In this document: piece after piece, positions 30,900 to 48,948 of the stretch | Layout: every line of letters starts with the position of its first letter | Numbering within the stretch: the first letter of the stretch is position 1 | Program-made: the position numbers and the translations under genes | DNA from: a virus | Length of the DNA: 64,000 nucleotides | IMG/VR virus record: IMGVR_UViG_3300023184_004234 | Location: 1-64,000 of that record | Reading direction: 5' to 3' (one strand) | The notes under the pieces: generated by a model | What the model was told of the DNA's origin: nothing | Databases searched by the model: none | The model's input: the letters and a program-made list of their open reading frames with translations, nothing else

Positions 30900-33800
30900 A
30901 TGGCCGTTGATATAAAAGTTGCACCAGAAGAAAAATTAGAATTAGTACAAACATTAATTGTAGATAATTCGGCAAATTCAGAATACTTTAATATAAGTGA
31001 ACTTCCTGATTCTTTTTCTGGAGGTAAAAACGCATTCTTAATAGCAGGTTCTGATTTATTACAATCTAACTCTGAAATAAAAATACAAATTAGAGATGCG
31101 GCGGGTAATATTGTTTATCATGAATTTTCAGATGGTAGCCCAAACGAATACTATGAAGGCAATTCTAAAGTAGTAGCAGTATATGTTTATCCAACTGAAA
31201 CTGCATTTGGACCAGCAACAATTACTGTTTTAGGTGAACTTAATATTAAAAATGTAAATGTTCCAATTGATTGGCAAAATAAATATAATGTAAAGTGGAC
31301 GGGCAGAGTTAATATTAATCCAGCATTAGCCAACACAACAAGGGTAAGATTTAAAAAAAGACCTAATGTTAAAATTACTGAAATATTAGAACCACTATAT
31401 ACGGTTAATACGATTACAACAACATATACTGGTTCTGCTAGGGCAATTCCTGTATCTCCAAATGCAGGTACTAATTATCAAAATTGGCTAAATTCTGGTC
31501 ATACCATTGATGATTTATATTATGCATTTCAAACCTCACCAAATACTCAAATAATATCTTCTAGTTTAGTTGGGTCAACTATTACAACGGATATTCCAGG
31601 ATATTCACCAATAATTAAAACTGCTCCAAATACAACATATGCGTATGTATATCCACCTTTATTAGATAGTAATGGTAATATAACAGGAAGTCCTGAAAAT
31701 ACATTTATTTCATATTCAATTGTAGACACAACTGCTACTAGTAAAGTTGCATCATTGGTTACTCAATCTTTTGCTGCAATTACTATAAACCAATTAGAAA
31801 CATTTGCAGGGGATGTAGCAAGAGTAAAAGTATTTAGAACATCTACAGGAGATATTTCTGATTATGAATTAATACAAGATATTAGAGTTGAATCAAAAAA
31901 TCTTTTAACTACATATGCATTAAGTAGTAGTGTAGTTGGAAATGCGGGATTATTTACACAAGATTCTTTAAGTAAGGTTTGGAATACTGGTTCATTATCT
32001 GCAAATTTAACATCAACATATGTAAACGATGGTGTAAAATTAGCAGGTCATGGTTATCTTACATATACTTCATCATTAAATCTGTTAAGTTCAAATACAT
32101 ATGAATTACAATTAAATTCATTTTTTACAGGTTCAACTTCAACAAATTTAGTAGCATATATTAGTGGTACACAAAATGGAGCAATTCCAATTACAACATT
32201 TAGTGGTTCAATTCCAACTAAAAATTTTGGAACAACTACAACTGCATTTAAAATTGCAAACGATGAACCATCTGCAAGTTTATATTTATCACAATCATCT
32301 GGAACAAATCAATGGCACATTGGTAATATATCATTAAACCTTTCACAAGATACGGCATTTTCACCAAACGAAATTAGTTTTATTACATCAATGCCGACTG
32401 TATTAGGTAATGAAACATTTAATTTTAAGTTTGAATTATACGATATAAACAATAATTATGTACCTATTGCATTAACATCAAGTGTACTATTCAATGGTGG
32501 TAATAATAACATTGGGGGAACTTTATTAATAGTTAGTGGTTCTACCTCAGCATCAAACGCATCCATATTAGCATTATCACAATCAGTTAGTGGTACAATA
32601 TCAGCAACATCACAAAGTGTAAGTAGCAGTATTGCAGCAACAAGTTCATCTTTAAGTAGTAGTATTTCTCAATCAACTTTTACGGCATCTATATATACCA
32701 GTGCATCAGTATCTACACTAAGTGGCTCGGTGAGCACTTCTATAAATTTAGTAAGTGGTTCATTAAGTAGTTCTATTAATGTAGTTAGTGGGAGTGTAGT
32801 TAATTTAAGTTCATCAGTAAGTACATCATTATCAACGTTATCATCATCATTAAGTACCTCATTATCTACCATTAGTAGTTCAGTATCTAATTCATCTTTT
32901 ACAGTTTATTCGGCATCAGCGTATTTAGAGAAATTTATTTTTACAGATGAAAATGGTAAATTAAATAAAACACCAACAACATCATCCGTAGTAAATGGCT
33001 TATACTTAGGTTCAACTTATTTAGGATATTATAGTGGAAGCAGTTGGAAAACATATATGGATAATCAGGGAGATTTTTATCTTACGGGTTCAAACAATAA
33101 TTTTTTAGCTTGGAATAGTTCATTGGGAACATTACAAGTTCAAGGTGTAATTAATATTCAAGGTGGAAACGCTGCAACAACAAGTAGTGTAAGTTCTTCA
33201 ATAAATTCAGCAACATCATCATTATCTCAATCATTAGCACCAAATATATTTACATCTACAACGGGTTTAATAAATAGACCACCTGTTGTATTGGTAGGTG
33301 GTACATCTGGATTATATTTAGGTTCATCTTATTTAGGATACTATGATGGTTCTGATTGGAAAACCTATATGGCTAATAATGGTAACTTTTATTTAAGTGG
33401 TCCTGGAACTAATTCATTATCATGGATAAATGGGGCGTTAACCATAAATGGTGTAATAAATATAACAGGAGGAAATGCCGCAACACAAACATATGCGAGT
33501 GGTACGGCATTTACACAAGCTACAACTGCACAATCAAATGCAGTATCAACCGCAGCCAGTGATGCAACAACAAAAGCAAATGCAGCACGAACCGCCGCAG
33601 AATTATTTGCGAGTGGGATTGGAACAAACGCCGTAGCATCGGGTTCTGCTGCAGCAACGGCGGCACAAACTGCGGCAATAAATCAAGCAAAAGCAGATGC
33701 AAGTGCATCCGTTACTTTATTAGCAAATGGAAATTGGACAGCAGGCAGTGGAACATTCATAACATCTAATTCTATTTCATCTCCTGTAATTGCAGGTAAT

Positions 33801-35510
33801 GCCGGATATATCAGTTCTCTTTTTAAAGTTGGACAGGGTGGTATAACATTAGATGGTGGTAATAAAAAAATATTTATAGGTACTGGTACGTTTGGAAATG
33901 CAAACACAGGATTTTATGCAGATAATGATGGTAATTTTTCGTTAGGAAACCAACTTACATTTACAGGTGGAAATTTAGCAATTGCTGGTGCAGCTAGTAT
34001 TGGTGGAACTACGGCAACAACCATAGCAAACGGAGCTGCAGCGGGCGCAGCTGCACTACAACCAGGGGCAAACATTAGTTCACTAAATAACAACTCCGGA
34101 TACCAAGATGCATCGAGTGTAAATAGTGCAGCAAAAACAGCAGGTTCTGTTGGTGGTTGGACAATTAATTCAACAAATTTAACATCTAATAATAATAGAA
34201 CAATTTTATATAATACCGGATATATTGAATTAAAAGATACAGCTGGGCAAAATAAAATAACAATAGATTCTAGTGCAACATTACCTAGTCCAACCGCCGG
34301 CAGTGATAGTGGAAACATTGTAGTACCGGCACAATCTGCACAAACAGTATATTATCAAAATGGTACAATATCAGGTGGTACTTCACCATTAGTTGGGCCT
34401 GATGGAAATGGGTTTTATGGAATCGGTTGGTCTCAACAAGTTGTATTTACTCCTACAATATCAGGATACTATGAATTTACAACTTGGTTTCCAAAAAATG
34501 ATGGTATGGGAGCAAGTGGAACAAGTGGTACTGCTTTAATGGGATTAAGAGCATACATTTATGATATGGCAGGTAATTCATTAATAAATGATGATGGTAG
34601 AGAATATATAGAAGGGCCGGTGGAAGGTGCGGGTGCAAATACAACCCAATCTGGATATGCAACAGGTACATATGGTAATCAATATAATAGAGATGGAACC
34701 GGTGCTTATTTTTCTAACCAATATCTTACTGCAGGAGTTGCAGTTAGATTTTTAATACAATGGGTAATTTTTAATATACGTTATTCGGATAATTTAACAA
34801 TTAAAGCATATTGGCCGGCAACAAATGTACAATTTATTTCAAATGTACCTAAAACTAATATTAACCAACAAGGATTTCAAGTTATACAAGATACAAATAG
34901 ATATTTAACAATTAAACCATCTGGTTGGTATATGTATAACGACCCTGCTATTTATGGTGGTTCACCACCACCATATATAAATGACCAGGGAGTTACTGAG
35001 GTTACCGGTATTATGGGTGGTACTATGGTTGTATTGAATGCAACGGATAAAGGGGATTGGCATAGTGGTAAACAAAAACAATATATCCGAAGTGCACAAT
35101 ATTCATTTGCAAATAGAGCAGCGGGTGGCAATTTTCTTACTTCATTTTTCTTTGGAGGATATGGTAGGTCGTTTAATATAACAAGAGCATATGGTTGGTT
35201 TACTCCAAATTCAAATACTGGATTTACTACATATGATAGTCAATGGTGGCCTTACGCATATAACATTGAAAGTATAACTAGAATTAGTTATGGTAAATTT
35301 CAAGTAACATTTGCAGAATCAGTAATGGATTCATATGGTGCATACTCAGGTGGTGGTATATATAGTGTATTTATAGGAAGAAGAGATGGGGATTACGCAT
35401 CAGAATTCACCACAGCTGCTATAAGTAACATATATCACACAGGATTTATTATGGATTTAGGTAATGAGACACCAGCAAATAGATTTGTTTCAATATTAGT
35501 AATAGCTTAA
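30900..35510 (+). CDS. Tail fibre / adhesin
   Basis: A 1536-residue host-recognition fibre. Residues 1-130 form an attachment domain (TLIVDNSANSEYFNISELPD). Residues 130-540 are beta-rich Ig-like segments. Residues 550-675 are a Ser-rich heptad-type stalk (SSLSSSISQS, SGSVSTSINLVSGS). Residues 700-860 carry two copies of a 58-60 residue fibre repeat. An Ala-rich coiled coil follows (about 865-945; AASDATTKANAARTAAELFA), then a further beta region with GTFGNANTGFYADNDGNF resembling the repeats, and a Gly/Tyr-rich globular C-terminal part (1130-1536) that probably contacts the receptor. No intramolecular chaperone (S74-type) end is visible. Two small fibre-linked genes follow. Confidence 0.85.
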   Translation: MAVDIKVAPEEKLELVQTLIVDNSANSEYFNISELPDSFSGGKNAFLIAGSDLLQSNSEIKIQIRDAAGNIVYHEFSDGSPNEYYEGNSKVVAVYVYPTETAFGPATITVLGELNIKNVNVPIDWQNKYNVKWTGRVNINPALANTTRVRFKKRPNVKITEILEPLYTVNTITTTYTGSARAIPVSPNAGTNYQNWLNSGHTIDDLYYAFQTSPNTQIISSSLVGSTITTDIPGYSPIIKTAPNTTYAYVYPPLLDSNGNITGSPENTFISYSIVDTTATSKVASLVTQSFAAITINQLETFAGDVARVKVFRTSTGDISDYELIQDIRVESKNLLTTYALSSSVVGNAGLFTQDSLSKVWNTGSLSANLTSTYVNDGVKLAGHGYLTYTSSLNLLSSNTYELQLNSFFTGSTSTNLVAYISGTQNGAIPITTFSGSIPTKNFGTTTTAFKIANDEPSASLYLSQSSGTNQWHIGNISLNLSQDTAFSPNEISFITSMPTVLGNETFNFKFELYDINNNYVPIALTSSVLFNGGNNNIGGTLLIVSGSTSASNASILALSQSVSGTISATSQSVSSSIAATSSSLSSSISQSTFTASIYTSASVSTLSGSVSTSINLVSGSLSSSINVVSGSVVNLSSSVSTSLSTLSSSLSTSLSTISSSVSNSSFTVYSASAYLEKFIFTDENGKLNKTPTTSSVVNGLYLGSTYLGYYSGSSWKTYMDNQGDFYLTGSNNNFLAWNSSLGTLQVQGVINIQGGNAATTSSVSSSINSATSSLSQSLAPNIFTSTTGLINRPPVVLVGGTSGLYLGSSYLGYYDGSDWKTYMANNGNFYLSGPGTNSLSWINGALTINGVINITGGNAATQTYASGTAFTQATTAQSNAVSTAASDATTKANAARTAAELFASGIGTNAVASGSAAATAAQTAAINQAKADASASVTLLANGNWTAGSGTFITSNSISSPVIAGNAGYISSLFKVGQGGITLDGGNKKIFIGTGTFGNANTGFYADNDGNFSLGNQLTFTGGNLAIAGAASIGGTTATTIANGAAAGAAALQPGANISSLNNNSGYQDASSVNSAAKTAGSVGGWTINSTNLTSNNNRTILYNTGYIELKDTAGQNKITIDSSATLPSPTAGSDSGNIVVPAQSAQTVYYQNGTISGGTSPLVGPDGNGFYGIGWSQQVVFTPTISGYYEFTTWFPKNDGMGASGTSGTALMGLRAYIYDMAGNSLINDDGREYIEGPVEGAGANTTQSGYATGTYGNQYNRDGTGAYFSNQYLTAGVAVRFLIQWVIFNIRYSDNLTIKAYWPATNVQFISNVPKTNINQQGFQVIQDTNRYLTIKPSGWYMYNDPAIYGGSPPPYINDQGVTEVTGIMGGTMVVLNATDKGDWHSGKQKQYIRSAQYSFANRAAGGNFLTSFFFGGYGRSFNITRAYGWFTPNSNTGFTTYDSQWWPYAYNIESITRISYGKFQVTFAESVMDSYGAYSGGGIYSVFIGRRDGDYASEFTTAAISNIYHTGFIMDLGNETPANRFVSILVIA
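32997..33482 (+). repeat. Two-copy repeat in the tail fibre (period about 312 bases)
   Basis: Copy 1 (32997-33176) and copy 2 (33309-33482) encode matching 60- and 58-residue units, both running from GLYLGS.YLGYY.GS.WKTYM through GVINI.GGNAA. The intervening segment differs. The units look like beta-strand repeats of a trimeric fibre shaft, expanded by tandem duplication. Confidence 0.85.
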
Positions 35511-36082: not shown

Positions 36083-37096
36083 ATGTTTGATTTATTAGTT
36101 ACGACAGGCGCAGGTAATCTACCTATGGGTGGTAGTGATATATGGGTAAATAATTTCTTAGAGAATGTTGTACCATATTTAAAATATCCAATTGTATTAT
36201 TAATTGATGGTAGAAAACCTAATGGATTTGACCCGACATCTATCCCTTGTCAATTTGTATTTTCAAAAGAAACACCACTATTAGTACCACCACTATTAAG
36301 AAATTGTAGAAGAATACATTTTTTACACAACAACTATTATCGTAGAGATGAATTGTGGGAGTTTAAATATAAATTTCATACAATATTTTGTCACGCCTAC
36401 ATCAAAGAAATTATAAATACAAATATAGAATTAGGATTAGATAGAGTTTACTTACCTACTACAATGGATTTACAATGGGAGCAAGATGTAATGAATCGAT
36501 GTAAACATATAGTTTGGATTGGTTGTAATGATGGATTAGTTCAAAAAGATTTTAAAAAGAAATGTATTCAGATACCAAATTACTATGAGTTTAACCACAA
36601 TATAGAATATAGATGGAATACCGATAAGATAGGATATGCAGCTCGTAGTGAAACAAGAAAATGTTTTCACTTCTTAGATAAACATAAAGGATATGCTATT
36701 ACCGATTGGATGGGATATGAAAATTTAAAAGAAGGATTAAACTTAGATTTGAAAAAAGTAAGATTCTACCCATATAATTTGGAAAACCACAGAAATTTCT
36801 TTAACTTAGACTTTACGATATTTCACGGATGTTATGTAAATGAACCATTTGGGTATTCTATATTTAACGCAATTGATTATGGTAAACTTCCAATACTAAA
36901 CAAATATTGGTTACCTAAAATAGATTACAAATATAGAGCAAATACAAAAGAGGAATTTAATAAAATGTATGAAATAATGTGTAATGATTTTGAATTAGAA
37001 CGACAATATAATTTTTTTAATTTAAAAGAAGCATTACAACAATATAGTAGTAAAGAGGAATGGATATATGAAATCACAAATATTTTAAATAAATGA
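36083..37096 (+). CDS. GT-B (GT4-like) glycosyltransferase
   Basis: A 337-residue cytoplasmic glycosyltransferase. The N terminus has TGAGNLPMGGSDIWVNNFL, the acceptor-side loop of GT4 enzymes, and the C-terminal half has NEPFGYSIFNAIDYGKLPIL, the E-x7-E-like nucleotide-sugar binding segment (E.FG...(I/F)..A...G..P). It begins the long glycan block and overlaps the next gene by 4 bases (ATGA). Sugar donor unknown. Confidence 0.75.
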   Translation: MFDLLVTTGAGNLPMGGSDIWVNNFLENVVPYLKYPIVLLIDGRKPNGFDPTSIPCQFVFSKETPLLVPPLLRNCRRIHFLHNNYYRRDELWEFKYKFHTIFCHAYIKEIINTNIELGLDRVYLPTTMDLQWEQDVMNRCKHIVWIGCNDGLVQKDFKKKCIQIPNYYEFNHNIEYRWNTDKIGYAARSETRKCFHFLDKHKGYAITDWMGYENLKEGLNLDLKKVRFYPYNLENHRNFFNLDFTIFHGCYVNEPFGYSIFNAIDYGKLPILNKYWLPKIDYKYRANTKEEFNKMYEIMCNDFELERQYNFFNLKEALQQYSSKEEWIYEITNILNK

Positions 37097-37848
37097 TAAC
37101 CAATAAAGATTATATCAAAAACAATATTTCTAATAATCAAGAAATAGATGAACATGGAGACCAGGTTTTAATTAACGTTCCTTATAGGTGGAGTCATGGT
37201 GCAACCGATGAACATTTAGGAGATGGATTAATCATTTATTCCCTAATTCAATATATGCGAGCAAAAGTATGTGTATGTTTAGGAAGTGGTGGCGGTTTTA
37301 TACCTAGAATTATGACGCAGGCTCGTTACGATTTGTGGAAACAAAATATATTTGAAGGTGATAGTGATTATAATCATGGTGATATTGGATGTACATATGT
37401 TGTAGATGCGACAAATGGTATAGGTGGTAATGTAAATTGGTTAAAAGAAGAATCTTTTTTTAGAAGTACATTTTGGCCTAGAATTATAAACGATACAACT
37501 GCAAACGCATTTCATAACTTTTTTGTATTAAATGATATTAAAATTGATTATTTACATATTGATGCGGGCCATAGTTATGAAAACGTAAAAGAAGATTTTG
37601 AATTATACTCGCAATTAATGAGTGAAACGGGTATTATATCAATTCATGATACTGACCCTAATTATGCAGATAAATATATAGTGACAAATGAAGTTAAAGA
37701 TAGGGGTGATTTTGATGATTGGAACGGACCTATACAATTAGCAAAAGAAATAGATACAAATAAGTGGCAAGTTTTTGATTTGTTTAATTTCGGTATATTA
37801 AAAAATAAGCCGGCCTCTACTGGACTAACATTAATAAGAAAAAAATGA
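37093..37848 (+). CDS. CmcI-like class I SAM methyltransferase
   Basis: A 251-residue protein. The SAM-binding strand and glycine loop appear as VCVCLGSGGGFIPRIMT, and the active-site side has DYLHIDAGHSYENVKEDFEL followed by GIISIHDTDPNY, the pattern of the Methyltransf_24/CmcI group. It is a longer relative of the protein at 408, whose N-terminal loop is weaker. Sugar O-methylation is the likely role because it is translationally coupled on both sides (ATGA overlaps) with glycosyltransferases. Confidence 0.75.
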   Translation: MITNKDYIKNNISNNQEIDEHGDQVLINVPYRWSHGATDEHLGDGLIIYSLIQYMRAKVCVCLGSGGGFIPRIMTQARYDLWKQNIFEGDSDYNHGDIGCTYVVDATNGIGGNVNWLKEESFFRSTFWPRIINDTTANAFHNFFVLNDIKIDYLHIDAGHSYENVKEDFELYSQLMSETGIISIHDTDPNYADKYIVTNEVKDRGDFDDWNGPIQLAKEIDTNKWQVFDLFNFGILKNKPASTGLTLIRKK

Positions 37849-38699
37849 AACCAAAATTAGTAACAGTAACAGGTCATAGAACAAATACATTAAGACATCA
37901 ACTTAACCATTACAAAGATATGGTTAGTGAAGTATTTTTAATTGTATATGAAAATGCAGATTCGCCTAAAAATATTAAAGATGAAATTGCAGATATAGCT
38001 AAAGATTTTGGTATAGAAATACATGCAGTTAAAACACATAGACCATTTGATTGGGAAGAAGTAACTCGTTTGTATAATAAAACAAAAATGTTATTTCCTA
38101 ACGATTGGTGGATTATAGCAGATGATGATGAATTTCAGGTATATTCAAAATTAATTACCGATATTACAAAAATATGTGATGAAAGTGGATATGAGTTTGT
38201 AACAGGAGGATTTGTAGATAGAATAGGTAGGGGTGGCACGTTTACTGAAATAAATGATGATACAAAAATATGGGAAGCATTTCCAATGGCAGGTTTCTTT
38301 CGTTATCCTTTAAGTGGGGCATGCCCAAATAAAATAACAATGTGTAAAGGGCATATTGAAGTGACACCGGGTCAACATTATGCAAAAATAGACGGACAAA
38401 CAACTTGGAAATGGCAAGGTTGGAATCATCCATTAAGATTTCCTACAACACAAAACTTTACACAAGTACATCATTTTAAATGGGATAGTACAGTATTGGA
38501 TAGATTACAGGATGTAGCAAAGATAGGACAAGTATATTCATACTCAAATGAATATCAAACAATGTACGATGCAATAAAATCAAATAATTTTAAAATTGAT
38601 ATTTATGATGAGAGGTTTTTATTCGAAGAAGTAAAAAATCCATCTTATTTTTCTTATAAGAATTGGAACAAACTATCTAAGATAATACTCTCTATTTAA
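37845..38699 (+). CDS. GT-A glycosyltransferase (GT2/GT92-like)
   Basis: A 284-residue protein starting with the strand LVTVTGHRTNTLRHQLNHY and carrying a DXD-like acidic patch in WWIIADDDEFQVY, the expected metal/nucleotide-sugar site. A later His/Trp-rich segment (TWKWQGWNHPLRF, then QVHHFKWDS) may bind acceptor or metal as in GT92-like enzymes. No transmembrane region. It ends 35 bases before the first GT7-LamG gene. Confidence 0.68.
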   Translation: MKPKLVTVTGHRTNTLRHQLNHYKDMVSEVFLIVYENADSPKNIKDEIADIAKDFGIEIHAVKTHRPFDWEEVTRLYNKTKMLFPNDWWIIADDDEFQVYSKLITDITKICDESGYEFVTGGFVDRIGRGGTFTEINDDTKIWEAFPMAGFFRYPLSGACPNKITMCKGHIEVTPGQHYAKIDGQTTWKWQGWNHPLRFPTTQNFTQVHHFKWDSTVLDRLQDVAKIGQVYSYSNEYQTMYDAIKSNNFKIDIYDERFLFEEVKNPSYFSYKNWNKLSKIILSI

Positions 38700-38734: not shown

Positions 38735-40216
38735 ATGAGTAGTCATAAATTAGCAATCATAGTACCATATAGGGATAGACGTGAACATTTGGATATATTT
38801 ATTCCACATATGCAAGAATTCTTAAATAATAAGAATATTGATTATAAGATTTATGTCATAGAACAATCCGATGATAAACCATTTAACTATGGAAAACTTT
38901 GTAATTCGGCATTTCATTTATTAAAAGATGAATATGATTATTTTTGTTTTCATGATGTTGATATGTTACCCATAAATGATAGTTGTGATTATTCATATCC
39001 AACCAATCCAATTCACTTAGCAACTAGAGCATCTGCACATAATGACCGATTACCATATTTACAATATTTTGGTGGAGTAATAATATTTCCAAAAGAAGAT
39101 TTTGAAAAAATTAATGGTTACTCAAACGAATACTATGGTTGGGGAATAGAAGATATTGATTTATTATATAGATGTAGTAATTCAGATATTCCAATGGAAA
39201 AACAACATGTATATCCACGTATAGATTCAAATTATAATTTTGATAAAATACAAAAAACAGATTCGTTTAAAACAGAAACTATAAAATATTTAAGTTTTGA
39301 TGGAGAAACCTTTTTAAACGTAGTTCCAAATAAAGAATTAAAAAATATTACAAACGAAAGTTTTACAGTAAGTTGTTGGATTAATGTACCAAGTAAACCA
39401 AAGAGTGAACAATATATTATTAGTTGGCCAGGATTTAATTCAGGAATTTCTTACCAAATAGATGGAACATTACGTTTCAATTTTTGGAATGAAGATAAAT
39501 TATATTTTTTTAATTATGAATCAATTGAACCAAATAAATGGCATCATATTGTTTTTAATTTAAACTATGATGAAAATAAAATTAAATTATGGATTAATAA
39601 TTTACAAGTACAAGAACAAATAGATGCAAAAACAATTGTTAAATTTCCATTATGGAATTATTCAAATGATTTGTTATATATTGGATGTGGTTCTCATAAT
39701 GCACAATTCTTTATTGGTAAACTTGCAAATGTTTATATGTTTGATTACAATCTTTCACAAACTGAAATAACCAATTTATATTTAAATGGATTGGAATATA
39801 ATAAAACATATCAAACTAAATTTGAACCTGTTTTACGCTATGAGTTTGATAATTTTTACAAACAAATTCTAATAGATAAAAGTAAAAATCATAATCACGC
39901 TAAATTCTTCGGAAAAGCAGGAAATGATTATTTAAACTTCGTTGATAATACAGTTATAGATAAAACAACAAAAATATCATTACCTATTAGAATTGAAGGT
40001 GAATATCAATCATTGGAACATGATGATGATATTAATATTGCAAGTAGATTCTATTCATATGATCCAGATATTTCAGAGAATAAAGAAATATTTTTTAATG
40101 ATATTATGAGTGGACAATATTCTACTTCTAAAATTGGATTAAATAATTTAAAATTCAAATTAGTAAAACAAGAAATTTTAGATGAAAAAACTGAATGGTT
40201 AAAAATAATTTTATGA
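38735..40216 (+). CDS. GT7-type galactosyltransferase with inserted LamG-like domain (copy 1)
   Basis: A 493-residue protein. Residues 1-147 are the N-terminal part of a beta-1,4-galactosyltransferase (GT7) fold: IIVPYRDRREHL, IYVIEQSDDKPFNYGKL, the DXD site CFHDVDMLP, YFGGV and YGWGIEDIDLLYR. Residues about 180-370 are a LamG/concanavalin-like sandwich (SFTVSCWINVP, WHHIVFNLNYDENKIKLWIN, LYIGCG, GKLANVYMFDYNLS). Residues 417-493 return to GT7 (GEYQSLEHDDDINIASRF, then GLNNLKFKL), equivalent to the C-terminal half of B4GalT enzymes. In the catalytic WGW.ED.D motif the middle Asp is replaced by Ile (EDID), unlike copies 2 and 3. Probably a lectin-guided glycosyltransferase. Confidence 0.85.
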   Translation: MSSHKLAIIVPYRDRREHLDIFIPHMQEFLNNKNIDYKIYVIEQSDDKPFNYGKLCNSAFHLLKDEYDYFCFHDVDMLPINDSCDYSYPTNPIHLATRASAHNDRLPYLQYFGGVIIFPKEDFEKINGYSNEYYGWGIEDIDLLYRCSNSDIPMEKQHVYPRIDSNYNFDKIQKTDSFKTETIKYLSFDGETFLNVVPNKELKNITNESFTVSCWINVPSKPKSEQYIISWPGFNSGISYQIDGTLRFNFWNEDKLYFFNYESIEPNKWHHIVFNLNYDENKIKLWINNLQVQEQIDAKTIVKFPLWNYSNDLLYIGCGSHNAQFFIGKLANVYMFDYNLSQTEITNLYLNGLEYNKTYQTKFEPVLRYEFDNFYKQILIDKSKNHNHAKFFGKAGNDYLNFVDNTVIDKTTKISLPIRIEGEYQSLEHDDDINIASRFYSYDPDISENKEIFFNDIMSGQYSTSKIGLNNLKFKLVKQEILDEKTEWLKIIL

Positions 40217-40626
40217 TAAAAGAACTATTACAAAATGAATCGTTTGTAAAGCAATTAGAATTAATTGCGGAAGAATTGGATATAATGAAAGAAACAAAAG
40301 GAGATTTTTCATTTTTTCTACCAAAGCTAATCTTAAATATTGAGGGATTGATGAAAAAATATCACCCATTGGGCTCTAATGTATTTGATTATATGGTAGA
40401 ATATGATTCAGTATCGGTACAAAACGAAGAACTAAAAAGAAAATATATTGAAGATGTTGATGCAAACAACAAAAGATTAAGAGATGTAGAATATAGAGTG
40501 TGGAAAGAAGGTTCGGAAAATTTAGCATTTGAAAAAGTAAAACAAAATTTGGGAATATTAGAAAACCCATCAGTAGAAATTGAAAACGAAAAAAACATAC
40601 AATTATGGCAGACAAAAAAGAATTAA
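40213..40626 (+). CDS. Small helical protein of unknown function
   Basis: The start ATG 40213 overlaps the GT7 stop (ATGA); an upstream ATG at 40195 is inside that gene. The 137-residue product is helical and highly charged (QLELIAEELDIMKETKGD; NEELKRKYIEDVDANNKRLR), with no Cys or membrane segment. It lies with the next small gene between two GT7-LamG copies. A coiled-coil scaffold or regulatory partner of the transferases is possible but not shown. Confidence 0.6.
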   Translation: MIKELLQNESFVKQLELIAEELDIMKETKGDFSFFLPKLILNIEGLMKKYHPLGSNVFDYMVEYDSVSVQNEELKRKYIEDVDANNKRLRDVEYRVWKEGSENLAFEKVKQNLGILENPSVEIENEKNIQLWQTKKN

Positions 40627-40826
40627 CAACAGAAGAAAGAGGTGTGAAAGCATTAGAAAGCATTGCACATTCTACACAAGACATTAGTGATTGGTTATAT
40701 GGATTAGATACCAAAGGATGGTCTACAAGATTAGAATGGTATTTAAATGAATTTTATAATCTTGCTAAAACCAAAACAGTTGGTACATCTAATAGACCCG
40801 ATAAAGAGTCTGAAAGAGAAGATTAA
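40605..40826 (+). CDS. Small hypothetical protein
   Basis: A 73-residue hydrophilic protein (ADKKELTTEERGVKALESIA, then DISDWLYGLDTKGWSTRLEW). It overlaps the preceding gene by 22 bases and its stop overlaps the next start (TAATG at 40824-40828). The Trp-rich centre is distinctive. Function not recognised. Confidence 0.6.
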   Translation: MADKKELTTEERGVKALESIAHSTQDISDWLYGLDTKGWSTRLEWYLNEFYNLAKTKTVGTSNRPDKESERED

Positions 40827-42238
40827 TGAAGAAATTAGCAATAATAATTCCTTATAGAGATAGAAAATCTCATTTAGAAATGTTCCTTCCATATATGAAA
40901 AAATATTTGAAGGAATATGAATATAAAATATATGTCATAGAACAATCGGATAGCAAACCATTTAATAGAGGTAAGTTATTGAATATTGGTGCAAAGATAG
41001 CAATTAGAGAAGGATTTGATTATCTTGCATTACATGATGTTGATATGTTGCCATTAAAAGGAGTAGATTATTCATATCCAGATACACCTATACATTTAGC
41101 TTCAATAGTTGATGCAGAACAACCATTTGATGATTATTTTGGTGGAGTTACGTTATTTAATGTTGAAGATTTTAAAATAATAAATGGCTTTTCCAATGAG
41201 TATTGGGGGTGGGGATTTGAGGATGATGATTTATTGCAAAGATGTATTCAAAAAAATGTACCATTAGATACTATAAAATTTGGCATACCTGAAAAAGAAT
41301 TTTTAATTAATTATTTTAGATTTAATGGCTCTACTTCTCATATTAAAATTCCATTAAAAAATTTACTAAGTACATTCGCCGGTGACTTCACAATATCAGT
41401 AAAATGTAAACCAGAAGATTGTAAAATTGATGAGAGTGCAGATTTTGATGAATATTATATTACTTCTATTCCAGGTAGAAACACAGGGTTATCATATACT
41501 TCATTTAAAAGATATAAATCTGAATTATGGACAAATGATAATAAATCAACTTCAATTCAAAGTGATATCATAGGAGAAATATGGTCACATTTAGTTATGA
41601 GTAAAACCGATGATACTCTTTCATTTTATATGAATGGTAAGTTAGTTGGAACAGAAAAATTAAATGACCAAATATTTGGATATGATAACACTTATTTTTA
41701 TATAGGAGTTGGTAATCCAAATTCAGAAAATGATAAATTTTATTTTAAAGGATTAATATCAGAATTTGCTATTTGGAATATTGCATTAGATGAAAATAAT
41801 ATAAATGAAATATATGAAAATTCATCAGTTAAATCTATTTTAAATGATTATAGAAGATATAATAAATCAAAGTATTTAAAATGTTATTATGATTTTAAAA
41901 ATTTTAAAAACGATATATTATTAGATTTAAGTGATAATAGAAATAACGCATTTATTATTGAATGTGAAGATAATTATTTAATAAATAAATTTGAAACCGA
42001 AATACCGATTCCAATTAGAAGAGAAGGTAAGTTTAAAACATTAAAACATAATTCAAATTCAACAATTGGAAATAAATGGATTCACTATGAAACAAGAAAA
42101 AATCAAACTAGATTTTATAATGAAATGAAAGGAACAATTTTAAATTTAAATATTGATGGTTTAAATACGTGTAGATATACACAATTAGAAACTGAACAAT
42201 TAGATGATTTAGTAATAAAAATAAAAGTAGAATTATAA
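40826..42238 (+). CDS. GT7-type galactosyltransferase with inserted LamG-like domain (copy 2)
   Basis: A 470-residue paralogue of 38735. N-terminal GT7 segments: IIIPYRDRKSHLEMF, IYVIEQSDSKPFNRGKLLN, LHDVDMLP and YWGWGFEDDDLLQRC (residues about 126-140), which keeps the full catalytic WGW.EDDD motif. The LamG-like insertion spans about 165-345 (FTISVKCKP, IWSHLVMSKTDDTLSFYMNG, YFYIGVGNPN, LISEFAIWNIALDEN). GT7 resumes at 394 with IPIRREGKFKTLKH and ends with DGLNTCRYT and VIKIKVEL, matching the end of B4GalT enzymes. One-base overlaps with both neighbours indicate coupling. Best-preserved copy; likely active. Confidence 0.88.
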   Translation: MKKLAIIIPYRDRKSHLEMFLPYMKKYLKEYEYKIYVIEQSDSKPFNRGKLLNIGAKIAIREGFDYLALHDVDMLPLKGVDYSYPDTPIHLASIVDAEQPFDDYFGGVTLFNVEDFKIINGFSNEYWGWGFEDDDLLQRCIQKNVPLDTIKFGIPEKEFLINYFRFNGSTSHIKIPLKNLLSTFAGDFTISVKCKPEDCKIDESADFDEYYITSIPGRNTGLSYTSFKRYKSELWTNDNKSTSIQSDIIGEIWSHLVMSKTDDTLSFYMNGKLVGTEKLNDQIFGYDNTYFYIGVGNPNSENDKFYFKGLISEFAIWNIALDENNINEIYENSSVKSILNDYRRYNKSKYLKCYYDFKNFKNDILLDLSDNRNNAFIIECEDNYLINKFETEIPIPIRREGKFKTLKHNSNSTIGNKWIHYETRKNQTRFYNEMKGTILNLNIDGLNTCRYTQLETEQLDDLVIKIKVEL

Positions 42239-43686
42239 TGCATAAATTAGGAGTTTGTGTACCATATAGAAATAGAGAAACGCATCTAAAAGAGTTTTCA
42301 CCGAGAGTTCATACCTTCTTAAAAGAACAGGGCATTGAACATAAAATATATTTCGCTCACCAATGTGATGATAAGTTATTCAACAGAGGTAAGATGAAAA
42401 ATATTGCAGCCAAACACGCATTTGATGATGGGTGTGATTATATTGTATGGCATGATATTGATATGGTACCTGAGGATGGTTCGTGTGATTATACGTTCAA
42501 TCCTGAGAACCCAAAACATTTAGCGGTAAGAATATCTCAAACAGATTATAACCTCAAATATGAGGAGTATTTTGGTGGTGCAGTACTATTCACAAAAGAG
42601 CAAGTAGAAGCAACAAATGGGTATTCAAATGATTATTGGGATTGGGGTATGGAAGATGATGACCTATTTTGGAGATGTGTATTGACTGGTAATGCAGAAC
42701 AACATTATTTATCAGAACAATTTAAAAATCAAAAGTATGGTTATTTTAATGGTAAAAATTCTTATGTAAAAATAGAACCATCTCGTTCAATTAGAAATGT
42801 ATGTTCTCGTTCTCATTCCGTTTCAATTTTAGTTAGAGCACACCAACAAGAAGAGAAAGTTCCTATTTATTTAATTGGTGATGAAGATAGAAGATTTTGT
42901 GAATATCCAATTTTCAGAAGACCAGGACATGATTGGGGATTAAGTTATAATAATAGTAGAGCATTTACTACAATGATGTGGAACAATAGCAGAGAGTTTT
43001 TATATCTATGGGCTAAACGATACGAACAACAATGGACATGGGTAACACTAACAGTTGATGATGATACTAAACAAATTTCACTTTATATTAATGGAAAGAA
43101 AAGTGATGCAAGATTTGGAACCGGATTATCTTCACCATTAGAATATGATGGGTTCTTAAAAAGATATGGAATAGAACCATATTACATAGGAACAACTACA
43201 TCAGTAGGTATAGATGAGGTTAATAGGTGGTTTAAAGGTGATATTGCAAAAGTTATGATGTGGGATAGATGTTTAGCTGAAAGTGAAATTTTAGAGTTCC
43301 CAGATGATATGGTTGCAAATTATGATTTTAATAACATAGAAGGAAATATATTAACCGATTTAAGTAATAATGGAAATCATGGTGAAATAAATAATGTTGA
43401 AATAAAAGAAGAAGATATTTTGAAAATCCATAATACTATCTTACCTTTCCGTAGAGATGGTAAGTTTGAATGTTTACCACACCAAACGGAAGGATTAATT
43501 AATGTAGGTGGGGTTGATAAATGGGCAAAGGGTGAAACAACTGCACGAAATGAAAGAAGATATATTTTAGAAATGCAGCAAGGCAAATATAATTGGAAAA
43601 ATGATGGTATGAATAATTTGGAATATGAATTAATATCAGTAGATGATATTGGTAATAATTCTGTAATAATAAATTGTAAAGCATAA
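42238..43686 (+). CDS. GT7-type galactosyltransferase with inserted LamG-like domain (copy 3)
   Basis: A 482-residue paralogue. N-terminal GT7 segments: VCVPYRNRETHLKEF, HQCDDKLFNRGKMKN, WHDIDMVP, EYFGGAVLFTKEQ and YWDWGMEDDDLFWRC at about 133-147. The LamG-like insertion (about 175-390) includes SHSVSILVRAH, WTWVTLTVDDDTKQISLYIN, YYIGTTTS and GDIAKVMMWDRCLAESE. GT7 resumes at 401 with LPFRRDGKFECLPHQ and GMNNLEYEL. The catalytic EDDD is intact. It is more divergent in sequence and in base composition than copies 1 and 2, suggesting an older duplication or separate acquisition. Confidence 0.88.
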   Translation: MHKLGVCVPYRNRETHLKEFSPRVHTFLKEQGIEHKIYFAHQCDDKLFNRGKMKNIAAKHAFDDGCDYIVWHDIDMVPEDGSCDYTFNPENPKHLAVRISQTDYNLKYEEYFGGAVLFTKEQVEATNGYSNDYWDWGMEDDDLFWRCVLTGNAEQHYLSEQFKNQKYGYFNGKNSYVKIEPSRSIRNVCSRSHSVSILVRAHQQEEKVPIYLIGDEDRRFCEYPIFRRPGHDWGLSYNNSRAFTTMMWNNSREFLYLWAKRYEQQWTWVTLTVDDDTKQISLYINGKKSDARFGTGLSSPLEYDGFLKRYGIEPYYIGTTTSVGIDEVNRWFKGDIAKVMMWDRCLAESEILEFPDDMVANYDFNNIEGNILTDLSNNGNHGEINNVEIKEEDILKIHNTILPFRRDGKFECLPHQTEGLINVGGVDKWAKGETTARNERRYILEMQQGKYNWKNDGMNNLEYELISVDDIGNNSVIINCKA

Positions 43687-45083
43687 TGGGACAGTACGAA
43701 AAATTTGAAAAAGTAAGAAGGCAACTTAATGAAGTAGGTGCAGGATTTTGTTTAGCAAAATGGATGCAGGTAACGCTTCATTTGCACATTGGTCATAATC
43801 ATAGTTGTCACCACCCACAAACACATAAAATATCAACTACTGAAATTGATAGAGACCCTTCCGCGTTACATAATACTCGTTATAAAAAAGAACGTAGGCG
43901 AGAAATGTTAGATGGTGCAAAACCAAAAGAATGTGATTATTGTTGGGGTGTAGAAGATAATTCTGACCAATTTAGTGATAGACATTTTAAAAGTGCAGAA
44001 CCATGGGCTTATCAATATTTAGATAAAGTAAAAAATTCTGGATGGAGAGATAATATAAATCCATCGTATGTAGAGGTTTCATTTAGTAATGCGTGTAACT
44101 TTAAATGTTCATATTGTGCACCTCCATTCTCAACACAATGGATGGAAGAAATTGAACAACATGGTGCGTACCCCACATCTGATAAGTTTAATGGTTTAGA
44201 CCATTTTAAACAAAGTGGTAGAATGCCAATTCCACAAAGTGAATTTAATCCATATGTAGAAGCATTTTGGAAATGGTGGCCAGATTTATATCAAGATTTA
44301 CATACGTTTAGAATTACAGGTGGTGAACCTATGATGCATAAAGATACTATGAAAGTATTGGATTATATTATTGATTCACCAAAACCAAATAGAAATTTAT
44401 GTTTAAGTATAAATTCAAACTTAGGAGTTCCTGATTCTTTGTATAAAAAATTTAAAGAGAAATTTAAAATTATATCTGAAAGAGAATTGGTTAAAGAATT
44501 GATTATCTTTACAAGTTGTGATGGATACGGAGAGCAAGCGGAATATATTAGAAATGGTATGGTGTATAATCAATTAATGGATAGAATTGACGATTTGTTA
44601 TTTCACATACCAAGATTAACAATTGATATTATGAGTACATATAATATTTTATCAGTTCCTTCTTATAAAAAATTAATAAATGATGTATATGCATTAAAAG
44701 CAAAACATACTAATTGGTTAAGATATTATAAACAACCTTTATTATTAGATGCATCATATCTCAGATATCCTAATCATCAATCAATTACATTGTTAGACCA
44801 AAAAGAATGGGAAAGTGAATTTTTTGAACAAGCACAGTTGATGGATTTTTATGATTTAACACGAACCGATACAAATACATTTGGATATAGTGATGTAGAA
44901 GTAGTTAAAATTAGAAGAATTTATGATTATTTTATGGGTGATGTTGATGAATTTTCAAGAGAACACCATAGAAAAGATTTTTATAAATTTTTTAGTGAAC
45001 ATGATAGACGAAGAGGAACTGATTTTTGTAAAACATATCCTGAATTAGCAGATTTTTATCATAAATGTAAAGAGATTAGATAA
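43686..45083 (+). CDS. Radical SAM protein with N-terminal Cys/His region (twitch type), copy 1
   Basis: A 465-residue enzyme. The radical SAM [4Fe-4S] motif is C137-x3-C141-x2-C144 in ACNFKCSYCAPPF, and the SAM-binding TGGEP follows at about 211. The N terminus has SCHHPQTHKI and PKECDYCWGVED, adding three Cys and several His that recur in the paralogue at 46856; they may bind a second metal cluster or Zn. The C terminus has HDRRRGTDFCKTYPELADFY. Members of this group occur in aquatic phages and bacterial glycan loci; carbon-centred radical chemistry on a sugar or peptide is likely. Coupled to GT7 copy 3 and to a LamG protein. Confidence 0.85.
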   Translation: MGQYEKFEKVRRQLNEVGAGFCLAKWMQVTLHLHIGHNHSCHHPQTHKISTTEIDRDPSALHNTRYKKERRREMLDGAKPKECDYCWGVEDNSDQFSDRHFKSAEPWAYQYLDKVKNSGWRDNINPSYVEVSFSNACNFKCSYCAPPFSTQWMEEIEQHGAYPTSDKFNGLDHFKQSGRMPIPQSEFNPYVEAFWKWWPDLYQDLHTFRITGGEPMMHKDTMKVLDYIIDSPKPNRNLCLSINSNLGVPDSLYKKFKEKFKIISERELVKELIIFTSCDGYGEQAEYIRNGMVYNQLMDRIDDLLFHIPRLTIDIMSTYNILSVPSYKKLINDVYALKAKHTNWLRYYKQPLLLDASYLRYPNHQSITLLDQKEWESEFFEQAQLMDFYDLTRTDTNTFGYSDVEVVKIRRIYDYFMGDVDEFSREHHRKDFYKFFSEHDRRRGTDFCKTYPELADFYHKCKEIR

Positions 45084-45886
45084 TGAAAAATGAATTAATA
45101 GAATTTAAAGATAATTTTTTAGTAAACTTTTTTGAAGAAACTAAATATAATACATCTAAAAAACCTGGATTGTTAAAGAATTTATTTCAAAATGATTTAA
45201 CAATATATGCTCGTTTTAAACTAAATAAAATGAAACGAGAACGAACTGCAATCTTTGCCAAACAAGGGTGTCATAGTGGTGCATATTTTGAAAATCAAGA
45301 TGGTAATATGAAATTTAGATTTTCATTATTTACGGCAGAACCTGATAGTGGTAATTATTCAGACCATTTTCAAATGATAGAATATTATCCAAAAGAAGAA
45401 GATGTTTACAAAGAAAGTTATGTAATATTTCAATTGGACCATACAAACAAAAAATTAAAAACTTGTTTTAATGGTGAATGGAAAGAATTAACATGGGAAG
45501 GTGATGTATGTGATTATACAAATGTACCACTTTGGGTTGGTGCAGGTGGTCCTTGGTATGATGATGTTGATTTTCATTGGATGTTTGAAGGATATTTTTA
45601 TGATTTTTCTATATTTAATAATGTACTTAGTGAAGATGATTGTTATACTATAATTGAAAATAAGGAAACTTATTTAGATAATTTAGAAATAAAAGAAAAA
45701 TGTGTTACATCATTAGATTTCACAAAATGGAATCGTTTTAAAGTATGGGATAAAACAGGAAATGGTAATTTTGGATTTATAGATGAATGGCATTTTCCAA
45801 ATGTACAAGAAAGATTAAATCTAATGATTGCTGGAAACAAATTAAAAATGTCTACAATTGAAAATATAACACAAACACTAATATAA
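45083..45886 (+). CDS. Stand-alone LamG/concanavalin-like protein
   Basis: A 267-residue protein with the beta-sandwich pattern of the inserted domains in the GT7 enzymes: FARFKL-type strands near residue 30-40 (LTIYARFKLNKM), YVIFQLDHTNKKLKTCFNGEW, PLWVGAGG and EGYFYDFSIFNNVLSEDD, which equals the closing 'G.L..v.iW...LSe.e' strand. No catalytic motif and no signal peptide are visible. It overlaps the radical SAM gene and the epimerase gene by one base each. It may be a glycan-binding partner of the pathway, or a degenerate GT7-LamG relative that lost its catalytic halves. Confidence 0.7.
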   Translation: MKNELIEFKDNFLVNFFEETKYNTSKKPGLLKNLFQNDLTIYARFKLNKMKRERTAIFAKQGCHSGAYFENQDGNMKFRFSLFTAEPDSGNYSDHFQMIEYYPKEEDVYKESYVIFQLDHTNKKLKTCFNGEWKELTWEGDVCDYTNVPLWVGAGGPWYDDVDFHWMFEGYFYDFSIFNNVLSEDDCYTIIENKETYLDNLEIKEKCVTSLDFTKWNRFKVWDKTGNGNFGFIDEWHFPNVQERLNLMIAGNKLKMSTIENITQTLI

Positions 45887-46854
45887 TGAAAATATTAATT
45901 ACAGGTGGAGCAGGTTACTTAGGTTCGGTAATTACCGATAAGATGCTAAACGCAGGACATAGTGTTACTATTATAGATAACTTATCATTCAATCAAATTT
46001 CTCCATTGCAATTTACATCAAATAAAAATTACAATTTTATTTATGGAGATGTTCGTAATGAAAGGTTATTAAGACATGAAGTAGGAATACATGATGTTAT
46101 TATTCCTTTAGCGGCAATCGTAGGATTTCCTGCTTGTGCAAAAGACCCTAAGTTAGCATGGGAAGTAAACTTTACTCAAATAGAAACCATATTAGATACA
46201 ATTAGTGATGAACAAATTGTATTATATCCAAATACAAATAGTGGGTATGGTATTGGTGTAGGACAAACGGAGTGTACCGAAACATCACCTTTAAATCCAA
46301 TTTCGGTTTATGGGGAAAGTAAATGTGCAGCCGAAAAATTATTATTAGAATGTAGTTCAGCAATATGTTTTAGATTAGCAACCGTATTTGGAACATCACC
46401 AAGAATGAGAACAGATTTATTAGTTAATGAGTTTGTTTACAAAGCAATGACAGATAAATACATTACGGTATTTGAAAAACATTTTAAAAGAAATTTCATT
46501 CATATTCAAGATGTTGCAAATGTATTCTTATGGGCATTAAACAATTATGATAAAATGAAACACAATGTTTATAATGTTGGATTAAGTGATGCAAATTTAA
46601 CTAAACAAGAATTATTAGAAACAATTCAAAAATATATTCCAGACTTTGCAATTTCATACAATGATTACTACGAAGATCCGGATAAAAGAGATTATATTGT
46701 ATCAAACGCAAAAATAGAAGCAACGGGTTGGAAACCACAATATAGTTTAGATGATGGTATTAAAGAATTAATGAAAACATATCAGGTGTTGATTCCTAGA
46801 ATGGCATCTGAATTTAGAAATGGATTTCCATTAGGTTACGCACAAACATTTTAA
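45886..46854 (+). CDS. NAD-dependent sugar epimerase/dehydratase
   Basis: A 322-residue extended SDR enzyme. NAD-binding loop ITGGAGYLGSVI at the N terminus, an acidic ribose-binding DN after the second strand, and the catalytic Y142-x3-K146 in SVYGESKCAAEKLL are all present, as is the FIHIQDVANVFLWAL segment and TGWKPQYSLDDGI near the end. This is the GalE/WbpP-like group that epimerises, oxidises or dehydrates nucleotide-activated sugars. Of the three SDR proteins in the block it is the only one with a canonical catalytic tyrosine. Confidence 0.88.
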   Translation: MKILITGGAGYLGSVITDKMLNAGHSVTIIDNLSFNQISPLQFTSNKNYNFIYGDVRNERLLRHEVGIHDVIIPLAAIVGFPACAKDPKLAWEVNFTQIETILDTISDEQIVLYPNTNSGYGIGVGQTECTETSPLNPISVYGESKCAAEKLLLECSSAICFRLATVFGTSPRMRTDLLVNEFVYKAMTDKYITVFEKHFKRNFIHIQDVANVFLWALNNYDKMKHNVYNVGLSDANLTKQELLETIQKYIPDFAISYNDYYEDPDKRDYIVSNAKIEATGWKPQYSLDDGIKELMKTYQVLIPRMASEFRNGFPLGYAQTF

Positions 46855-46855
46855 T

Positions 46856-48412
46856 ATGGCAGGTTTTGTATTCGGAAAAAAGTGGGATGAAACATATCAA
46901 GAGTATAGGGATAGAAGTATAAATTCAATATCCCCATCATTTTGTGGAGCAAAGTGGTATAATGCAACTATATGGTTAAATATGGGACAAACAACATCAT
47001 GTCACCATCCACAACCACATAAAATTCCATTAAGAGAATTAGAGCGTTCACCAAAAGCATTACACAATACACAATATAAGAAATTGGTTCGTAAAGAAAT
47101 GTTAGAAGGCATTAGACCTAAAGAATGTGAATATTGTTGGAAGATAGAAGATTTAGGACCAGATAAAGTAAGTGATAGAGTTTATAAATCAGTTATATAT
47201 TCAGATGAAGAATTAATTAATGCTGAAAAAAATTATAGTTGGAACAAAGATGTTGATTTAAAAACATTAGAAATTAGTTTTGATGCAAATTGTAACTTTG
47301 CTTGTTCATATTGTAATGCATCATTTAGTACAACATGGCAATCCGATATTAAAACAAATGGTGCATATCAAAACTTAGTTACAGATGGTGGCGGTGCATT
47401 TCAGCATGCAGGAGATGATGCTATGATATATGGTAAAGACCAATTAGAAAATCCATATTTGGAAGCATTTTGGAAATGGTGGGAAGGTGATTTACAAAAC
47501 TCATTAAGAGAATTAAGAGTAACGGGTGGTGAACCTACTATGAGTAAAGGGTTTTGGAAGTTAATGGATTGGTGGAAAGAAAACAAAAAATGTGATGTAA
47601 ACTTTGCCGTTAATTCAAATTTAGGACAAAGTAAAATGTTAGTAGATAGATTAATTAATTCAACGCATAATTTTAAACATTTTTCATTATATACTAGTTG
47701 TGAATCGGTTGGTGCACACGCTGAATATATTAGAGATGGATTAAAATGGGAAGTTTGGAAAGAAAATGCAGAAAGAATTATTGTGGATGGTAATTTAAAA
47801 ACATTTAATGTAATGATGACAATTAATGCATTATGTTTATTTAGTATAACAGAATTTTTAGATTTTACAAATGAATTAAGAAAAAAATACGAAGATAAAA
47901 CAGAAGTATTAGTTACATTAAACATATTAAGATTTCCATCGTTTCAATCCGCAACTACATTACCTGAACATATTAAATTAGAAAGAGCAGAACATTTACA
48001 AAATTGGGCAGAAAATTTAATTAAAGAAAATAAAGAAACAAATTTACATACGGAAGCATCTTTGTGGGGACTGGTAAATCAAGTATATAGGTTATGTGAA
48101 TACTTAAGAGAAGTAACACAAGGACATAGATTTGCTTCTGATTTAGAAAGTAGAGAAAAAGATTTTAAATCATTCTATACACAATATGATATTCGTAGAG
48201 GTAAAAATTTTATAGAAACATTTCCAGAATTGGCAGATTGGTATAATTCAATAGATGCAACTAAAATAGATAAAATAATTGAAATACAACAAGCTGCGGA
48301 TAATGGTGTTTATAATAAAGAGTATATGGAAAAAGCAATGGCAGATAGTGTTGTAAACGATGCATTAGAAAACGAAATATTAGAATATTTAGAACCAAAA
48401 AAATTAATATAA
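46856..48412 (+). CDS. Radical SAM protein (twitch type), copy 2
   Basis: A 518-residue paralogue of 43686. Motif C146-x3-C150-x2-C153 in NCNFACSYCNASF, with VTGGEP at about 222. The N-terminal features are shared with copy 1: CGAKWYNATIWLNMGQ, SCHHPQPHKI, ALHNTQYKK and PKECEYCWKIED. The C-terminal RRGKNFIETFPELADWY also matches. It is longer by about 50 residues at the C terminus (acidic helical tail). The conserved extra Cys pairs suggest an additional cluster-binding region common to both. Two copies in one block imply two successive radical steps or a heteromeric pair. Confidence 0.85.
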   Translation: MAGFVFGKKWDETYQEYRDRSINSISPSFCGAKWYNATIWLNMGQTTSCHHPQPHKIPLRELERSPKALHNTQYKKLVRKEMLEGIRPKECEYCWKIEDLGPDKVSDRVYKSVIYSDEELINAEKNYSWNKDVDLKTLEISFDANCNFACSYCNASFSTTWQSDIKTNGAYQNLVTDGGGAFQHAGDDAMIYGKDQLENPYLEAFWKWWEGDLQNSLRELRVTGGEPTMSKGFWKLMDWWKENKKCDVNFAVNSNLGQSKMLVDRLINSTHNFKHFSLYTSCESVGAHAEYIRDGLKWEVWKENAERIIVDGNLKTFNVMMTINALCLFSITEFLDFTNELRKKYEDKTEVLVTLNILRFPSFQSATTLPEHIKLERAEHLQNWAENLIKENKETNLHTEASLWGLVNQVYRLCEYLREVTQGHRFASDLESREKDFKSFYTQYDIRRGKNFIETFPELADWYNSIDATKIDKIIEIQQAADNGVYNKEYMEKAMADSVVNDALENEILEYLEPKKLI

Positions 48413-48948
48413 TGAGTAATAAATGGGATGCGTTCAAAGTAACTCCATCAAAAAAATTTGGAATGGAAGTTCCAATCTTTACACCTTCAATTTATAGAGA
48501 ATATAGAGGAGAAATATTTACAACCTTTCATTCAAAAGAACATCCTGTAATGATAAGAATAGGTGAAGGACATGAAATTCATGGTAGATTCTCAAAATCA
48601 TACAAAGGTGTATTAAGAGGATTGCATTATGATAATAAAACTTGGAAATTAGTTCAAGCAGCAGTTGGAGATATTTACCTAATTGTTTTGGATATGCGAA
48701 AAGAAAGTCCTACCTTTGGTGAATGGGAATCTTTTATGATAACTGAGAAAGATAGAAATCAAGTATTAGTTCCACCTGGTTTTGCAAACGGACACTATGC
48801 TCTAACCGATTGTATGTTTCATTATAACCTATTCTACAAAGATGGTTATGTAGATGCAGATGAGCAAGGTGTAGTTAAATGGAATGACCCCGAATATCAA
48901 ATGGAATGGCCAACAACAAACCCAATATTACAAAAAAGAGATAGATAA
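48412..48948 (+). CDS. dTDP-4-dehydrorhamnose 3,5-epimerase-like (RmlC family)
   Basis: A 178-residue cupin enzyme. It has the RmlC signatures YRGEIFTTF, SYKGVLRGLHYDN with the catalytic-region His, and LVPPGFANGHYAL. The length matches the family. The usual reaction is epimerisation of a dTDP-4-keto-6-deoxy sugar at C3 and C5; related proteins act on GDP or UDP sugars. Because no RmlA, RmlB or RmlD is recognised in the window, its 4-keto substrate must come from the host, from the SDR enzymes here or from genes outside. TAATG coupling to the next gene. Confidence 0.82.
   Translation: MSNKWDAFKVTPSKKFGMEVPIFTPSIYREYRGEIFTTFHSKEHPVMIRIGEGHEIHGRFSKSYKGVLRGLHYDNKTWKLVQAAVGDIYLIVLDMRKESPTFGEWESFMITEKDRNQVLVPPGFANGHYALTDCMFHYNLFYKDGYVDADEQGVVKWNDPEYQMEWPTTNPILQKRDR

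Follow-up and report, generated by a model that had tools for sequence, protein, structure and literature searches.

Within a 64,000-nucleotide stretch of viral DNA (IMG/VR record IMGVR_UViG_3300023184_004234, positions 1 to 64,000; here, the window), three paralogous genes encode B4GalT-type glycosyltransferases of family GT7 whose catalytic domain is split by an internal LamG-type domain. This split architecture is real and is a new architectural variant of GT7. On balance, though by little, we favor the reading that the three proteins are split B4GalT-type transferases of a phage glycan cassette in which the LamG domain tethers the acceptor. The open reading frames (ORFs) of the three paralogues, a, b, and c (P0001, P0002, and P0003), are open and intact, and the other two are 39 and 35% identical to the middle paralogue, P0002. 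By Pfam and by a profile of the GT7 C-terminal half (C-half), the domain order in all three is GT7 N-terminal half (N-half), LamG, GT7 C-half. The genes and their parts are as follows.

38735 to 40216, + strand: whole gene of paralogue a (P0001, 493 residues; ORF and Pfam)
38735 to 39202, + strand: paralogue a GT7 N-half, residues 1 to 156, with DxD and YGWGIEDID (Pfam 7N at 2 to 86, 7C at 94 to 155)
39203 to 39982, + strand: paralogue a LamG insert, residues 157 to 416 (Laminin_G_3 at 203 to 345, E 9.6e-20)
39983 to 40213, + strand: paralogue a GT7 C-half, residues 417 to 493 (C-half profile)
40826 to 42238, + strand: whole gene of paralogue b (P0002, 470 residues; ORF, Pfam, and AlphaFold model)
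40826 to 41272, + strand: paralogue b GT7 N-half, residues 1 to 149 (Pfam; Foldseek to B4GalT7 and B4GalT1 over about 150 columns)
41033 to 41047, + strand: paralogue b HDVDM, the DxD metal/donor motif, residues 70 to 74 (alignment)
41204 to 41230, + strand: paralogue b WGWGFEDDD, the Trp loop and xED, residues 127 to 135 (alignment)
41273 to 42010, + strand: paralogue b LamG insert, residues 150 to 395 (Laminin_G_3 at 167 to 326, E 2.3e-17; concanavalin A-like fold)
42011 to 42235, + strand: paralogue b GT7 C-half, residues 396 to 470 (C-half profile)
42026 to 42049, + strand: paralogue b GKFKTLKH, the strand into the metal-binding H408 (human H343), where the lid begins (alignment)
42155 to 42166, + strand: paralogue b DGLN, part of the GT7 motif at the C terminus (sequence and C-half profile)
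42238 to 43686, + strand: whole gene of paralogue c (P0003, 482 residues; ORF and Pfam)
42238 to 42693, + strand: paralogue c GT7 N-half, residues 1 to 152 (Pfam)
42694 to 43443, + strand: paralogue c LamG insert, residues 153 to 402 (Laminin_G_3 at 171 to 351, E 1e-10)
43444 to 43683, + strand: paralogue c GT7 C-half, residues 403 to 482 (C-half profile)

An initial annotation had proposed that the LamG domain is nested within the GT7 catalytic domain rather than appended to it, and the Pfam order together with the match of the C-half profile to GT7 tails bore this out. In each paralogue, both GT7 models of Pfam lie at the N terminus and Laminin_G_3 follows them. Glyco_transf_7N matched P0001, P0002, and P0003 with E values of 1.7e-25, 4.3e-22, and 2.1e-19, and Glyco_transf_7C with 3.3e-18, 4.5e-19, and 4.3e-19; these and the Laminin_G_3 matches listed above all exceeded the curated cut-offs. 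The three proteins have the sequence and fold features of CAZy family GT7, namely both Pfam models, the active-site residues, and the C-terminal part of the fold. They lack its usual, not strictly defining, trait of a contiguous catalytic domain: inserts of about 260, 246, and about 250 residues (paralogues a, b, and c; boundaries from profiles) interrupt it. The N-half had been placed at about residues 1 to 147; it is indeed a GT7 N-half, with its end moved to about residue 149 to 156. The motifs described as common to the trio are present in all three, with a spelling that is not uniform: YGWGIEDID, GEYQSLEH, and IGLNNLKF in P0001 and WDWGMEDDD, GKFECLPH, and DGMNNLEY in P0003.

We found that the C-half is recognizable as a GT7 tail by profile. 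When P0002 was searched against the PDB with phmmer, the alignment was significant over residues 2 to 146 only, and the C-half was not recovered by the single sequence; the C-halves give no such match because they are too short and too diverged. The C-half profile matched the tails of insert-free cellular GT7 proteins with an hhalign E value of 9.5e-15 (column-shuffled and reversed controls, 0.5 to 1). It matched the tails of insert-free viral GT7 proteins with an E value of 6.5e-15, which upholds the earlier assignment of the last 75 to 80 residues to GT7. Its sole matches in the PDB were 12 B4GalT1 chains, at their C terminus, each of them weak (E 0.2 to 0.66). The empty insertion site also exists in nature: in viral GT7 proteins of about 220 residues, such as L100, the N profile (1 to 149) and the C profile (150 to 222) abut. 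We also considered that the C-terminal part might be a separate new domain. The profile match and the empty site in relatives rule this out.

The structure models gave the same picture. Foldseek aligned the split P0002 model (predicted local distance difference test score [pLDDT], 95.6; predicted template modeling score [pTM], 0.91) one part at a time, and therefore the C-half was examined in L100, a relative that lacks the insert. The AlphaFold2 model of L100 (pLDDT, 95.2; pTM, 0.92) matched B4GalT1 with a template modeling score of 0.86 over 231 columns, the C-terminal tail included. The elements of the P0002 model correspond to those of L100: helix 132-142 to helix 134-144, strand 402-405 to strand 155-158, helix 421-434 to helix 167-181, and the C-terminal strands 452-458 and 463-469 to strands 204-210 and 215-221. 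LamG is joined to the GT7 part by two long strands, 148-167 and 381-395. Mean-field couplings among 202 nonidentical proteins (effectively 115 sequences) pointed the same way: in the top 50 pairs, N-half to C-half pairs occurred at 1.45 times expectation, N-half to LamG pairs at 0.41 times, and LamG to C-half pairs at 0.36 times. This excess fades past the top 100 pairs, and the couplings are supporting, not decisive, evidence that the two halves pack together. By profiles and Foldseek, we found neither a C-terminal tail that packs apart from GT7 nor an insert without a concanavalin-like fold.

The insertion point is identical in the three paralogues. It lies between two elements, namely the helix following the WGWGxEDDD motif and the strand that runs up to the metal-binding His and lid. 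Along the chain, the DxD, the Trp, and the Glu-Asp precede the insert, and the His that binds the metal and the lid helix that binds the acceptor follow it. The insert would enter at about residues 329 to 331 of human B4GalT1, a register across the gap that we infer from the alignment. The lid of the human enzyme spans residues 338 to 365 and includes M340 and H343 (PMC6198961). Variable regions of the GT-A fold have been described between beta3 and alphaC, between beta6 and beta7, and after beta8 (PMC7185993), and the insertion point appears to fall outside all three. Taking residue roles from PMC6198961, we found that the equivalents of human D248, D250, Y285, W310, E313, D314, and H343 are conserved in 33/33 class b and 23/23 class c proteins. 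Because every catalytic residue checked is kept in these two classes, the insert has apparently not destroyed the active site.

That the insert is concanavalin-like, as initially suggested, was supported by Foldseek matches of the P0002 model to LamG-type domains and pentraxins (4dqa, which is BACOVA_03559; 3flp; and the pentraxin 1sac), which indicate a jelly-roll fold. The LamG profile match is above cut-off in all three inserts. No protein spanning both GT7 and LamG was among the PDB or BFVD matches listed. The median ratio of nonsynonymous to synonymous substitution rates (dN/dS) was 0.127 for the insert, 0.066 for the N-half, and 0.109 for the C-half; the insert is under purifying selection. 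The insert and the GT7 parts have diverged together (distance correlation, 0.73; class agreement, 68/80), as would fit an insertion that preceded the triplication and was followed by little swapping. The split architecture probably predates the triplication. On the GT7 tree, the insert state required 3 changes on the best tree versus 21 in shuffles. A single clade of insert-bearing proteins is compatible with the data (approximately unbiased test, P = 0.232), which does not in itself establish a strict single origin.

These data also bear on a structural explanation, in which the insert is a lobe that sets the open and closed motion of the lid and has no ligand of its own. The insert does end about 12 residues ahead of the metal-binding His at the lid start, and it is attached through the two long strands. 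However, a 250-residue jelly roll with a dN/dS of 0.127 that is reused in the cassette exceeds what a hinge would require, and the insert-free relatives do without it. We therefore consider a purely structural or regulatory lobe quite improbable.

The initial annotation had raised the possibility of a new phage glycosyltransferase architecture. It is new, and it is not confined to this phage: the split architecture is general and recurs in many uncultured phages. In IMG/VR, 492 candidate stretches encode relatives, a count that may include insert-free ones. The order N-half, LamG, C-half was found in 223 ORFs of the fetched loci, and 202 nonidentical proteins entered the coupling analysis. Copies per locus numbered three in 49/84 loci and two in 34/84. 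Scans of viral contigs with the single sequences L088 and P0004 returned almost nothing, and alignment queries were needed. Among 84,980 bacterial and archaeal genomes, a scan that reaches only sequences retaining the searched peptides found the architecture on only five short metagenome-bin contigs (L084 to L087 and L090). The bins are Flavobacteriales, Flavobacteriaceae, Pelagibacterales, and Gammaproteobacteria, and the contigs are probably phage contigs binned with their hosts. In the deposited phage genomes of INPHARED, tblastn gave no match for P0001 to P0003 or for the insert-free L100; the same search found matches for other window proteins. No GT7 with LamG is described in the papers searched. 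Thus, a GT7 with a split catalytic domain is new relative to the collections and papers searched.

Misjoining of a LamG gene into a GT7 gene, by fortuitous fusion or in assembly, has next to no probability as an explanation. We found nothing in its favor, and it is opposed by the same domain order in the 202 nonidentical proteins from many independent contigs, conserved synteny, and low dN/dS. An artefact of assembly or frame fusion is ruled out on these grounds.

In the reading that we favor, each protein is a GT-A catalytic domain interrupted by a LamG module on a two-stranded stalk. Folding and catalysis would proceed as in B4GalT, with a uridine diphosphate (UDP)-sugar, Mn, inverting transfer, and lid closure. 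The donor is probably UDP-Gal-like, because paralogues b and c retain the donor Tyr that influences the choice of donor in B4GalT1 (human Y285). The LamG module, to judge its position by homology, would keep the acceptor, a growing glycan or a glycoprotein, next to the acceptor cleft, and each transferase would then act only on the proper intermediate. The product would most likely be a glycan that is specified by the phage and carried by the host envelope or the virion. The earlier suggestion that LamG acts as an acceptor selector is plausible, with glycan binding and a location over the active site both putative.

Two points weigh against this reading. LamG-type domains also mediate contacts between proteins, so that glycan binding cannot simply be assumed. 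In addition, among class a relatives the alignment shows the Trp equivalent in 8/27, the Glu in 17/27, and the His in 18/27, losses that misaligned columns may exaggerate. Because these residues are lost in many class a relatives, paralogue a may be a diverged subunit with altered or no catalytic activity. P0001 itself retains the DxD, Trp, Glu-Asp, and His and has Ile at the D315 position.

The three genes lie in a cassette whose other members are as follows.

36083 to 38699, + strand: conserved upstream genes, namely an unassigned protein (36083; no Pfam or NCBIfam match), a Methyltransf_24-like protein (37093), and a weakly GT2-like protein (37845)
43686 to 45083, + strand: radical S-adenosylmethionine (SAM) protein N_Twi_rSAM, a conserved neighbor (NF033640, E 2.5e-97)
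45083 to 45886, + strand: stand-alone LamG-like protein P0004 (Laminin_G_3, E 3.2e-4; 21.3 bits, below the cut-off of 27.6)
45886 to 49580, + strand: downstream genes, namely a nicotinamide adenine dinucleotide (NAD) epimerase, a second N_Twi_rSAM, an RmlC-like deoxythymidine diphosphate (dTDP)-sugar isomerase, and an E1/thiamine pyrophosphate (TPP) enzyme

The order is widely kept: the 36083-type protein, the methyltransferase, the GT2-like protein, and two or three GT7-LamG genes in the 5' part, followed by N_Twi_rSAM, stand-alone LamG, epimerase, RmlC-like protein, and E1/TPP enzyme in the 3' part. In 61/77 loci, a stand-alone LamG gene comes after the radical-SAM gene. Genes at the P0004 position in other loci are P0004 homologues or insert-profile matches, and P0004 is a possible partner in trans. 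The window cassette has two N_Twi_rSAM proteins (43686 to 45083 and 46856 to 48412), and a tblastn search of deposited phage records with the first gave no match. In one locus (L078), LamG domains also occur 5' of the cassette in proteins of 403 and 650 residues (L078:625-1833 and L078:1840-3789), perhaps tail proteins.

That LamG domains recur through the cassette points to a substrate in common, on which the shared LamG type would let the cassette enzymes act. The same recurrence favors the main rival explanation, that the insert is a docking or oligomerization module that joins the three transferases, the stand-alone LamG, and the radical-SAM enzyme and binds no sugar. Two gene fusions fit such docking: in one, a radical-SAM protein carries a LamG domain at its N terminus (L062:8855-10960, 702 residues), and in the other, a paralogue c homologue is joined to a radical-SAM protein (L082:4175-6916, 914 residues). 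Furthermore, the insertion point maps beside the rim of the crystallographic homodimer of human B4GalT1, where R330 forms a salt bridge with E313 (PMC6198961), and the module may replace that interface. The homodimer interface also uses loop 1, an acceptor-binding loop (PMC6198961). On the other side, the cassette is glycan related. Many LamG and pentraxin-type domains bind glycans. We regard docking without sugar binding as unlikely.

If the LamG domain does tether the acceptor, a more specific form of this idea is possible but doubtful. The insert would be a built-in, covalent counterpart of alpha-lactalbumin that, at the acceptor face, binds the glycan as it grows and links its recognition with closure of the lid. 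The recurring LamG type would then mark the three transferases, the radical-SAM enzyme, and the free LamG protein as one substrate-tracking glycan assembly line of uncultured phages. In B4GalT1, the acceptor modifier alpha-lactalbumin is a separate protein (PMC7565966, PMC6198961).

The source record of the window is a 67,909-base uncultured virus that encodes phage baseplate-wedge proteins. By window proteins, the closest deposited phages are Microcystis phage Mel-JY01, Flavobacterium phage immuto, and a 484-kb uncultured phage. The three GT7-LamG genes are placed between a 1,536-residue Ser/Thr-rich protein (30900 to 35510) and sugar-nucleotide genes. This protein, just 5' of the cassette, is 24% Ser/Thr (up to 47% per 100-residue stretch) and is a possible glycan acceptor or tail fiber. 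Pelagimyophages are reported to have glycosyltransferases and radical-SAM cassettes in the region for host recognition, and a change of the host surface has been proposed for them (PMC7029224). Elsewhere in the window, a single 1,048-residue ORF (26098 to 29244) has an SbcD-like family at residues 2 to 300 and an SbcC-like family at 349 to 1047, which identifies it by sequence as a fused nuclease-ATPase. A 1,449-residue protein (58925 to 63274) has a cytidylyltransferase-like N terminus and DUF5661 as its only assigned parts.

The nearest known enzymes, B4GalT1 and B4GalT7 (GT7; PDB 1fr8, 6fwt, and 4irp), were the top Foldseek and sequence matches. They share with the phage proteins the GT-A fold, the DxD, WGWGxED(D), the metal-binding His of the lid region, and the C-terminal DGLN-type strand pair, but no insert separates the Trp-loop helix from the lid in their known structures. 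GT7 proteins of viruses and bacteria that lack the insert, such as L100 and L088 (about 220 residues), match the same N and C profiles, but their halves abut without LamG. LamG-like jelly-roll proteins (1sac, 4dqa, and viral LamG) share the fold and Pfam match of the insert. Known LamG/Laminin_G_3 domains are free-standing, in tandem, or appended, whereas the phage domain is nested in an enzyme. The ppGalNAc-transferases (GT27) carry a C-terminal ricin-type lectin domain that steers acceptor choice; that module has another fold and follows the catalytic domain as an appendage. An earlier example of a GT-A catalytic domain split by an insertion is PGAP4 (GT109), whose tandem transmembrane segments are thought to help present the acceptor (PMC5785973). 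PGAP4 differs in that its insert consists of membrane helices and that it is a human enzyme of another family.

The phage enzymes hold a whole domain inside the GT-A fold at what appears to be a new place, with the catalytic residues checked kept in paralogues b and c. If the LamG domain binds the acceptor glycan, this would be a natural design for programming the acceptor choice of a galactosyltransferase, for which the insert-free viral relatives and the three paralogues are controls at hand. If true, it would also give a handle on the products of the large sugar cassettes in uncultured aquatic phages.

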